This document shows positions 1-5,048 of a DNA stretch of 24,492 bases, piece by piece. Source of the stretch: a virus; the IMG/VR virus record IMGVR_UViG_3300031885_000110, positions 1-24,492 of that record; one strand, given 5' to 3'. The position numbers and the translations under genes are program-made. The first letter of the stretch is position 1, and the number at the start of each line of letters is the position of its first letter. The notes below the pieces were generated by a model. That model had not been told where the DNA came from. It worked only from the letters and a program-made list of their open reading frames with translations, and made no database searches.

Positions 1-14
1 GAAGGAGGGATAAG

Positions 15-659: not shown

Positions 660-780
660 CCGGCAGTGGCGAAAATGGGAGACGCGGAGCGGCACAAAGA
701 TGATCCCTCCTTCGAATTGTGATGCTCCGGTCGGGAAAGGTGCCAGCCCGACCATGGGAGTTCGAGCCTTCCCTGCCGGA
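660..780 (+). tRNA. class II tRNA-like gene with enlarged anticodon arm
   Basis: Cloverleaf elements fold in order. The acceptor stem CCGGCAG (660-666) pairs perfectly with CTGCCGG (773-779). A 3-bp D-stem (669-671/683-685) has a GGG-containing loop. A long variable arm GGTCGGG (729-735) pairs perfectly with CCCGACC (747-753). A 5-bp T-stem (756-760/768-772) carries the canonical loop TTCGAGC. The oddity is the anticodon arm: 687-691 pairs with 723-727, then after a G/A mismatch CACAA (693-697) pairs with TTGTG (717-721), leaving a 19-base apical loop instead of 7. No anticodon can be assigned. No CCA is encoded. Variable-arm length puts it in the Leu/Ser/Tyr class. It may be a true tRNA with an insertion, a decayed tRNA, or a tRNA mimic. 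Confidence 0.55.
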
Positions 781-783
781 AAC

Positions 784-882
784 GTGGCGATGGTGGAATG
801 GTCACACAGCCCTACGTTAGAGGGTGCCGATAATGGGTACAACGTAACCACGGCAATGGGGGTTCGAATCCCTCTCGCCACA
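784..882 (+). tRNA. class II tRNA-like gene, apparent anticodon GTT
   Basis: Acceptor GTGGCGA (784-790) pairs perfectly with TCGCCAC (875-881). Two bases separate it from a 3-bp D-stem GTG/CAC (793-795/805-807) with a GG-containing loop. The anticodon stem GCCCT/AGGGT (809-813/821-825) closes a 7-base loop ACGTTAG, giving apparent anticodon GTT (816-818, Asn codons). The T-stem GGGGG/CCCTC (858-862/870-874) carries loop TTCGAAT. Two features are abnormal: position 33 is C rather than the near-universal U, and the variable region is 32 bases (826-857) with its own stem GCCG/CGGC, whereas Asn tRNAs normally have short variable loops. The body looks Leu/Ser-like. It begins three bases after the preceding tRNA-like gene. 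No CCA is encoded. Confidence 0.62.
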
Positions 883-883
883 C

Positions 884-978
884 CGATGCCAGGACGCATG
901 GTGCGCCACGAGGTGCCGTCGACCCAACCCGAGCGAGGCGGAGATAGAACAACGTCCACAGTAACAGGGCTGGCATCG
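884..978 (+). ncRNA. stem-closed structured element next to the tRNA pair
   Basis: CGATGCCAG (884-892) is the perfect reverse complement of CTGGCATCG (970-978), enclosing 77 bases; GACG (893-896) can extend the helix inward against CGTC (953-956). The size and position, two bases after a tRNA-like gene, suggest a third small structured RNA or a processing hairpin. It lacks the TTCGA T-loop on either strand, so it is not called a tRNA. Its 3' end lies just upstream of the ribosome site of the next gene, so it could also act as a leader structure. Confidence 0.35.
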
Positions 979-3057: not shown

Positions 3058-3086
3058 CATAATCTGTGGTGTTACCAATATGGGTG

Positions 3087-3290
3087 ATGTCTATACGCCC
3101 CAAGGTACGCACCGAGCAGATTAATCTTCGGGTCACACCAACGGAGCTGGAAGAGATTCGCTCGGCGGCGGAGCGCAACGATACTTCCGTCACCCAGTAC
3201 ATCATGACCGCAACCCTTGACAAGATCGCCAAGGAGAAAAGGCCGTTTATCGGGACGCTGCGTCGCATGAGAGAGCAAGGGTTGCTATGA
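3087..3290 (+). CDS. ribbon-helix-helix DNA-binding protein
   Basis: A 67-residue protein. After a short basic arm, residues about 7-50 match the ribbon-helix-helix pattern: a strand (EQINLRVTP), helix one (TELEEIRSAAERND) and helix two (SVTQYIMTATLDKIA), as in DUF1778/TacA-type antitoxins and MobC-like regulators. No toxin gene lies beside it, so a transcription regulator is more likely than an antitoxin. The ATG at 3087 is preferred over 3066, which would leave only eight bases after the upstream motif. As first gene behind that motif it may regulate the packaging operon (inference). It overlaps the next gene by four bases (ATGA). Confidence 0.68.
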   Translation: MSIRPKVRTEQINLRVTPTELEEIRSAAERNDTSVTQYIMTATLDKIAKEKRPFIGTLRRMREQGLL

Positions 3291-3928: not shown

Positions 3929-4744
3929 ATGGCGGACAGCGACAAGACGAAGAAATCAAAGGCCGTACCGAAGGCCAGCGGAATCAAGGTGTATTGCGCC
4001 TTTGACGAGGTGGTGGACATCACCAAGATAATCCCCAATCCGCGCAATCCCAACAGACACCCGGAGCGACAGATTGAATTGCTGGCGAAGATCATAAAGA
4101 ACCAGGGGTGGCGAGCGCCCATCACTATCTCCCGCAGGTCCGGGTTTGTTGTGCGTGGAGGAGGCAGGTACGAAGCGGCCAAGTTGCTGCATTCTACCGA
4201 GGTACCGGTAGATTTCCAAGACTATGCGAGCGACGCCGAGGAATGGGCCGATCTCATCGCCGACAACAGGATCGCCGAACTAGCCTACATCGATGAGACT
4301 GTGCTGAAGGACTTGGTGTCGGAGATAGACGTTGGCGACTTCGACATGGACCTGACAGGGTTCGACAACGAATCGCTCGAGAAGCTTATGACTTGGGTCC
4401 CGGACGAGTCCAACCTGCCGGACGATCTGCCTCCGCCCGAAGTGGAAGGCTTAGACACCAGCATGGGCAGGCTCATCCTGGTATACGGCACTCCGGAAGA
4501 GAAACAGCGATGGTTCGATCTGCTCGGTTTGGAAGGGCAGACCAACCAGGTAGTCTTCTCTCTCGCCGACCTTAAAGCCAAGGAAGAGGAACCGACAGAA
4601 CAGAAGGTACTCGCCCCTGACCACGGATTTAACAGCGAGAGAAGTAACATGATCGCCCACAAGGCGGTAAATGCCGAGCAATCAAAAAGCATTACCGAGA
4701 GCCATACTTCAACAGCAAGCCTAACCAACCATCTAGGAGAATGA
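3929..4744 (+). CDS. ParB/Srx-like domain protein
   Basis: A 271-residue protein. Residues about 26-120 form a ParB N-terminal-type domain: DITKIIPNPRNPNRHP (30-45), a helix (QIELLAKIIKNQGW), PITIS, and the Box II region VVRGGGRYEAAKLL (74-87). In phages this domain is usually fused to, or next to, a DNA methyltransferase. None is present here. The C-terminal part (about 170-220) has a proline/acidic linker, then RLILVYGTPEEKQRWFDLLG, a small alpha/beta domain that often trails these proteins. A Lys-rich N-terminus could contact DNA. Likely roles are DNA binding or nicking near packaging, but the biochemical activity is not established. It lies between the terminase genes. Confidence 0.72.
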   Translation: MADSDKTKKSKAVPKASGIKVYCAFDEVVDITKIIPNPRNPNRHPERQIELLAKIIKNQGWRAPITISRRSGFVVRGGGRYEAAKLLHSTEVPVDFQDYASDAEEWADLIADNRIAELAYIDETVLKDLVSEIDVGDFDMDLTGFDNESLEKLMTWVPDESNLPDDLPPPEVEGLDTSMGRLILVYGTPEEKQRWFDLLGLEGQTNQVVFSLADLKAKEEEPTEQKVLAPDHGFNSERSNMIAHKAVNAEQSKSITESHTSTASLTNHLGE

Positions 4745-4745
4745 A

Positions 4746-5048
4746 ATGAATCCAGAAACCAACAAATTCGAGCTACTCAAACCATATACAGACCAGAACG
4801 AAGGCCCAGGAGGATTACAGCATGTGGTGGCCGGAGACCTCTCTCTGGCCAGCGTCGGCCTGTTGAAGCGCGTGGTGATGAAGCAATCGTTGCTGCGCCC
4901 GAACGGCGAGCCCGTGCCAGAGCACTGGACACAATTTCAGATCGGCGAGTGCGTAGTCATCAAAAATTATACGTTCAGGGTGGCCTACATTGGCGAAACA
5001 TCGATCTTGTTCGAGCCTGTCGGTATCCCGGATTTGGGGGTGAAGTGA
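4746..5048 (+). CDS. small phage protein of unknown function
   Basis: A 100-residue protein. The C-terminal half (HWTQFQIGECVVIKNYTFRVAYIGETSILFEPV) reads as a small beta-barrel, a pattern I associate with short phage proteins lying near terminase genes. AGGAGAATG-type spacing supports the start. It has no catalytic motif and no cysteine cluster. Function unknown. Confidence 0.65.
   Translation: MNPETNKFELLKPYTDQNEGPGGLQHVVAGDLSLASVGLLKRVVMKQSLLRPNGEPVPEHWTQFQIGECVVIKNYTFRVAYIGETSILFEPVGIPDLGVK

Follow-up and report, generated by a model that had tools for sequence, protein, structure and literature searches.

Phage tRNAs are usually explained as helpers in codon usage or as replacements for tRNAs cut by host defences. 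Two further RNAs of phage T4, RNA C (139 nt) and RNA D (119 nt), lie at the end of its tRNA cluster; these phage-encoded, late, stable RNAs (species 1 and 2 RNAs) have a function that is still unknown (PMC9697503). Metagenomic sequences, partly from soil and Acidobacteria, have yielded irregular soil tRNAs and allo-tRNAs with abnormal cloverleafs, some of which are unusable in E. coli (PMC7609411, reviewing Mukai et al. 2017). The pseudo-tRNA tRNA-Other of Bacillus cereus is reported to be tRNA-like, not used in translation and linked to mobile DNA (PMC3399842). Here we describe a phage locus with two neighbouring tRNA-Leu-type RNAs, W1 and W2, and the wider class of viral genes that they resemble.

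The window, as we call the whole 24,492-nt stretch of DNA that was analysed, is a 24.5-kb phage fragment from an IMG/VR virus record, and its genes include a large terminase, a portal and a capsid-type gene. W1 lies near its start (Table 1). Throughout its stems 33 of 33 pairs are standard, to which one internal mismatch is added. The D stem is GCG/CGC (669-671/683-685) and the strands of the variable arm are GGTCGGG/CCCGACC (729-735/747-753). At the position of the anticodon arm, a base of GGAGCG/TGCTCC (686-691/723-728), whose sixth pair is G-U, is followed by the single mismatch G692/A722 and then by CACAA/TTGTG (693-697/717-721). The RNA ends on A73 at 780, and CCA is not encoded. The preliminary description of this DNA had reported the pairing of the acceptor, variable and T arms and a canonical T loop, TTCGAGC; on re-reading, these coordinates hold, with one G-U pair in the T arm. 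Its further claim, that the anticodon arm runs on into CACAA/TTGTG and a 19-nt loop and leaves no anticodon, is borne out alike by the sequence, the minimum free energy (MFE) fold and the pair probabilities.

Table 1. Features of W1, W2 and related sequences. Coordinates are those of the window, except for the three siblings, which are given on their own sequences.
Feature	Coordinates	Strand	Basis or description
W1, tRNA-Leu-type RNA without anticodon, 121 nt	660..780	+	Fold, ARAGORN intron mode, independent covariance model
W1 acceptor 5' strand, CCGGCAG	660..666	+	Pairs with 773-779 CTGCCGG, 7/7 Watson-Crick
W1 Leu-type D arm, GCG-AAAATGGGAGA-CGC	669..685	+	Sequence; fits model R1
W1 extended arm at anticodon position	686..728	+	6 bp + G/A mismatch + 5 bp
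W1 apical loop, 19 nt, AGATGATCCCTCCTTCGAA, holding anti-Shine-Dalgarno CCTCCTT	698..716	+	
W1 long variable arm, 7 bp + 11-nt loop	729..753	+	Shuffle P ~0.0002
W1 T arm, GGGAG-TTCGAGC-CTTCC (one G-U), and acceptor 3' strand	756..779	+	
W2, second aberrant tRNA-Leu-type RNA	784..882	+	Rfam RF00005, ARAGORN intron mode
Candidate third structured RNA, no T arm (tentative)	884..978	+	9-bp inverted repeat
Sibling L010	3873-3989		Loop AGGTTAG; variable stem of 6 bp enclosing a long interior that forms a hairpin
Sibling L091	16405-16524		Loop CAGGTAA; 6-7-bp variable stem
Sibling L100	79-266		188 nt; adjoins ordinary tRNA-Thr

Folded without constraints, W1 adopts as its MFE structure a cloverleaf with the extended arm. 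In the anticodon-position stem, the five Watson-Crick pairs each form with probability 0.99 and the G-U pair with 0.58; the values are 0.77-0.99 in the arm extension but only about 0.39 in the D stem, and positions 704-711 are unpaired with a probability of at least 0.89. In shuffled sequence, an extension of 5 bp arises with P ~0.009 and a variable arm of 7 bp with P ~0.0002. The folding energy of W1 is modestly better than that of shuffles and unexceptional (z -1.4 to -1.65), so the case for W1 rests on its specific tRNA pattern rather than on its stability.

Run with default settings, ARAGORN found no tRNA gene in the window, neither W1 nor W2, and the Rfam tRNA model scanned over the window did not report W1. 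Allowing introns, a check proposed in the preliminary description, led to exactly two ARAGORN calls in the window (660-780 and 784-884), and to none in 200 dinucleotide shuffles of it. The covariance model from related phage contigs that had also been proposed there likewise recovered W1: model R1, built from W2 and the siblings L010 and L091 with W1 left out, matches W1 with a score of 36 bits (E = 1.3e-6 in a search of 1.35 Mb, a rough value given the small model). R1 covers the tRNA stems only, because in an alignment of the siblings MAFFT places the variable arms wrongly. With R1, an ordinary tRNA-Leu from a Terriglobia MAG obtains 33 bits, which identifies the core common to W1, W2 and the siblings as the tRNA-Leu core. 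In a Terriglobia MAG we also noted a 130-nt Leu-like tRNA-shaped stretch with an encoded CCA (L168; G031 C30 8227-8356), which matches the model weakly (16.9 bits) and whose acceptor and T arm pair by eye. An exact search of viral contigs for the T arm plus acceptor of W1 gave 0 matches, and BLAST of the W1 region against phages returned only T-arm matches to ordinary tRNAs. With no close homologue found in these searches, the evidence for W1's own extended arm is structural.

W2, which the preliminary description did not include, starts 3 nt downstream of W1. It scores 40.5 bits with the Rfam tRNA model RF00005, 29 nt being taken as an insertion, and it has a 7-nt loop ACGTTAG at the anticodon position with C33 rather than U33, a variable arm of about 31 nt, and A73. 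Directly after W2, a perfect 9-bp inverted repeat, CGATGCCAG/CTGGCATCG (884-892/970-978), surrounds 77 nt of apparently non-coding sequence; this stretch has no Rfam match and a fold z of only -1.2. Further along the window, ORF 3066-3290 encodes a small protein with a NikA-like or TacA-antitoxin-like match that is conserved in relatives near the terminase region.

Related phages were defined by their terminases (~48-77% identity). Most of these relatives carry no ordinary tRNA gene, and three of them carry odd genes similar to W1 and W2 (L010, L091 and L100; Table 1), whose genome position differs from one to the next. All siblings have a TGGYG D arm and A73. Across W1, W2, L010 and L091 the variable arm measures 25-51 nt and the total length 99-121 nt, and in L091 the T loop (TGCGAAT) has drifted, as has the D loop. 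BLAST of L010, L100 and one member of the wider class gave nothing useful. Searches with the loop patterns GTTAG and AGGTNAG returned only the known siblings and chance matches in coding sequence, and in 396 Acidobacteriota genomes the loop motif had one chance match, equal to the reversed control. One further candidate, L049 9246-9358, was rejected as a tRNA-like gene, as it reads as coding sequence. A search for the host by terminase yielded only weak relatives among MAGs and isolates. One relative, L002, carries a tmRNA (4555-4898; tag AENAWKLAA; Rfam score 81 bits), and its homologue of window ORF 3066-3290 lies just downstream of that gene. In another related phage, we observed a minihelix-like element (L118 ~1500-1545; G023 48733-48776) in which a 7-bp acceptor and a T arm are joined by a short linker, with neither a D arm nor an anticodon arm.

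An intron-like insertion had been among the explanations first suggested for W1, and ARAGORN can indeed fit both genes as functional tRNAs whose anticodon loop is interrupted by a short intron: removal of 27 nt would make W1 a Leu(CAA) tRNA, and removal of 19 nt would make W2 a Val(UAC) tRNA. However, the W1 loop has no U33, and the proposed splice would destroy the variable arm. The bulge-helix-bulge is missing, W1 forming a continuous helix with one 1x1 mismatch, and its insert of 33 nt falls far below the >200 nt of a group I catalytic core and has no Rfam intron match. Across W1, W2 and their siblings, ARAGORN arrives at anticodons for Leu, Val, Pro, Leu and Ser with differing insertion sites, and these splices would break up variable arms that otherwise pair well. 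The tmRNA in L002 points to bacterial hosts. Together these observations make an intron extremely improbable.

In viral contigs we looked for a Leu-type D arm with a T arm placed 62-92 nt after it, a spacing too wide for a normal tRNA-Leu. This pattern gave at least 126 matches in at least 120 stretches, where about 14 would be expected by chance over the whole collection (an estimate). Among the matches listed, 113 of 126 have a fully paired T stem together with six or more of the seven acceptor pairs where these are predicted, and 108 show 7/7 acceptor and 5/5 T-stem pairing, the acceptor being no part of the pattern. At least 107 distinct sequences of 100-129 nt each are represented, and the acceptor AGTCAGG is common to 59 of the 107 among the matches listed. 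A cloverleaf scan of the listed loci found 117 genes with a length of 95-135 nt, and none once the loci had been mono-shuffled. W1 probably belongs to this class of long Leu-type tRNA-like genes in viral contigs, the borders of which are arbitrary since members were chosen by length and a Leu-type D arm. A long-gap Leu pattern in 151 genomes of G031's class hit mostly neighbouring ordinary tRNAs or chance sequences, as judged by eye. No published description of this class was found in the literature searched, most subscription papers lying outside it.

A 5-bp stem with a 7-nt loop at the anticodon position occurs in 5 of the 111 class sequences among the matches listed (~5%), a count that rises to 6 with W2, whose D stem was misplaced by the script; 2-3 such arms are expected by chance, and U33 is present in two of those seen. 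CCA is encoded in 2/111 class sequences among the matches listed versus 21/124 ordinary tRNAs of the same contigs (Fisher P 9e-5). A C directly follows the discriminator base in 101 of the 111 members listed, and the flank often reads CAA or CTA. It could be supposed that these RNAs are active in translation as unusual tRNAs, for example as leucine-charged tRNAs that read non-Leu codons or cause frameshifts, by analogy with allo-tRNAs and their non-Ser anticodons. W2, L010 and L091 do combine a 5-bp arm and a 7-nt loop (formal anticodons GUU, GUU and GGU), and the anticodon is not checked by LeuRS; yet all three are missing U33, and an anticodon arm of canonical size is missing in W1 and in ~95% of the class members listed. 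We consider activity in translation very improbable.

Several individual genes deserve mention beside this class. Two non-Leu tRNA-like genes built on the W1 plan, L180 (minus strand from 3247) and L174 (minus strand from 945), combine normal acceptor, D and T arms with an 8-9-bp arm at the anticodon position and a 22-24-nt loop. The Brevundimonas phage Kabachok (L303 1002-1172) has a type I tRNA-like candidate of 171 nt, in which the D arm is canonical, the middle oversized and the acceptor paired at 6/7 positions. In the cultured Leuconostoc phage phiLM33_01, an unannotated long Leu-type tRNA-like gene (L302 1498-1604; PV780767.1 40337-40231) adjoins tRNA-Trp and has the T loop TGCAAAT; by eye, an H-type pseudoknot is possible inside it. 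That a class member is found in a cultured phage whose host is a food bacterium makes experiments feasible.

The inner sequences of the class are very diverse, with 88 clusters for the 111 class sequences listed, a divergence so great that one shared function is not guaranteed and the class may hold several. At least 15 families have two or more homologous copies, and in 7 of 15 we observed changes on both sides of inner pairs. L203 differs from L253 and L266 by five compensated pairs in one variable arm, the group L186/L190/L219/L243 has two compensated pairs in an anticodon-position arm of 8-9 bp, and L210/L269 has three. The inner arms of these members are thus conserved. In a further comparison by eye, L192 and L198 differ in one arm, GCTAC/GTAGC against ACCAC/GTGGT, and close to the T arm TGACA/TGGCA is a match for the loop segment TGTCA/TGCCA. 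This suggests that their inner regions may covary as a pseudoknot formed by the loop at the anticodon position and the variable region.

These compensatory changes argue against decay for the class. Decay of tRNA genes combined with random insertions would account for the absence of an anticodon and of CCA, for siblings without U33 and for the drifted loops of L091. However, drift would not create extended arms, and the stem pairs of W1 are all standard, with one internal mismatch. As for the hallmarks of pseudogenes, namely uncompensated stem mismatches and unconstrained insertions, W1 instead has intact stems and the class has compensated inner arms. The preliminary description had already thought decay alone a poor explanation, and we consider decay quite improbable. 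That description had named random substitutions in the stems of homologous contigs as evidence that would count against its own reading; the opposite is seen in the class, and W1 itself offers no close homologue for the comparison.

The apical loop of W1 holds an anti-Shine-Dalgarno motif, CCTCCTT, and lies one deletion from GATCACCTCCTT (shuffle P ~0.0003). The loop is a near-match to the 16S rRNA 3' tail (shuffle P 0.0003-0.0014) and is predicted to be unpaired. W1 might then be a tRNA-scaffolded antisense or ribosome-directed regulator, the loop of which would pair with mRNA starts, notably that of gene 15-257, or mimic the 3' end of 16S rRNA. The best pairing partner of the loop is the ribosome-binding site at window 1-11, and the duplex that it would form with the ORF 15-257 ribosome-binding site has a predicted energy of -21.5 kcal/mol, a value equalled by 1 of 300 shuffled loops. 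However, the motif was noticed post hoc and the siblings are without it. Among the matches listed, CCTCC appears in 4 of 88 class clusters versus 1.4 expected, which does not support an anti-Shine-Dalgarno function across the class, and complementarity of the inner regions to their own contig is at shuffle level (P<=0.05 in 7 of the 111 listed; P=0.4 for W1). Because the motif is post hoc and not a class feature, and antisense pairing is at chance level, we regard a regulator of this kind as distinctly unlikely, the loop being a weak lead to a partner of W1.

Without an anticodon, W1 should not read codons and is therefore most likely a tRNA mimic. With moderate confidence, we favour the interpretation that W1, along with W2, is a non-decoding tRNA-Leu-derived RNA of a widespread phage class, in which the acceptor/D/T half is kept and the anticodon/variable half is replaced by lineage-specific hairpins. 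More tentatively, W1 may belong to a large unrecognised class of phage RNAs, with at least 100 and probably many more members in public viral contigs. Such RNAs would use the acceptor/D/T half of tRNA-Leu as a scaffold on which structured modules evolve rapidly, their role would lie outside decoding, and T4 RNA C might be a distant case. Widespread tRNA-shaped phage RNAs without an anticodon need an explanation other than codon help or tRNA replacement.

Under this interpretation, W1 would be transcribed together with the surrounding genes and, because its elbow and acceptor are canonical, would be excised by the RNase P and RNase Z of the host; CCA would be added by the host enzyme, and the RNA would persist as a stable species. 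LeuRS does not read the anticodon, so leucylation could be possible, given A73 and the Leu-type core. The tRNA half may provide stability and occupy a tRNA-binding partner or the tRNA-handling machinery, and the large inner hairpins may make a specific, lineage-specific contact. Both the mimic and the decoy that the preliminary description had proposed are compatible with what was observed. A special case of such a mimic would be a decoy that soaks up a host tRNA-directed defence or toxin acting on the acceptor end, the elbow or the D/T arms, such as nucleotidyl- or acetyl-transferase toxins or RNases, with translation unaffected. An intact acceptor/D/T half beside a highly variable remainder would fit an arms race, and class genes often lie beside ordinary phage tRNAs. 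Anticodon nucleases are the best-known targets of phage tRNA countermeasures, and their usual cleavage target is the anticodon loop. They would see no such loop here, which makes a decoy for anticodon nucleases awkward, and no defence system is linked to these genes; on balance we think a decoy unlikely.

Among known RNAs, type II tRNA-Leu shares with W1 the 7-bp acceptor, the D arm (TGGCG..), the long variable arm, the T arm and A73. In contrast to tRNA-Leu, W1 has no normal anticodon arm or anticodon, lacking the 5-bp stem, the 7-nt loop, U33 and a Leu anticodon. Allo-tRNAs resemble W1 in their abnormal cloverleaf (PMC7609411), but they have a 12-bp acceptor branch (8/4 or 9/3), an anticodon and a Ser-type D arm; the 12- or 13-bp branch of allo-tRNAs and tRNA-Sec (8/4, 9/3 or 8/5) is 7/5 in W1 and W2, W1 has no anticodon, and the D arm is of Leu type. 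Like W1 on the interpretation favoured here, tRNA-Other is reported to be a tRNA-like RNA outside translation (PMC3399842). Like W1, tmRNA keeps a tRNA elbow and has most of the anticodon side replaced; unlike tmRNA, which has a tag frame with pseudoknots and no D stem, W1 pairs its D stem, contains no tag reading frame and has no Rfam tmRNA match. RNA C and RNA D of T4 come closest to W1 among known cases. RNA C, which has no Rfam tRNA match at gathering level, differs from W1 in having no Leu-type D arm and, by eye, only about 5/7 pairs in the 7-position acceptor; the resemblance seen between the two is limited to a perfect canonical T arm (CCGGG-TTCGAAT-CCCGG in RNA C) and to size. A class that is invisible to default tRNA annotation may offer a handle on the unsolved role of the small stable RNAs of T4.
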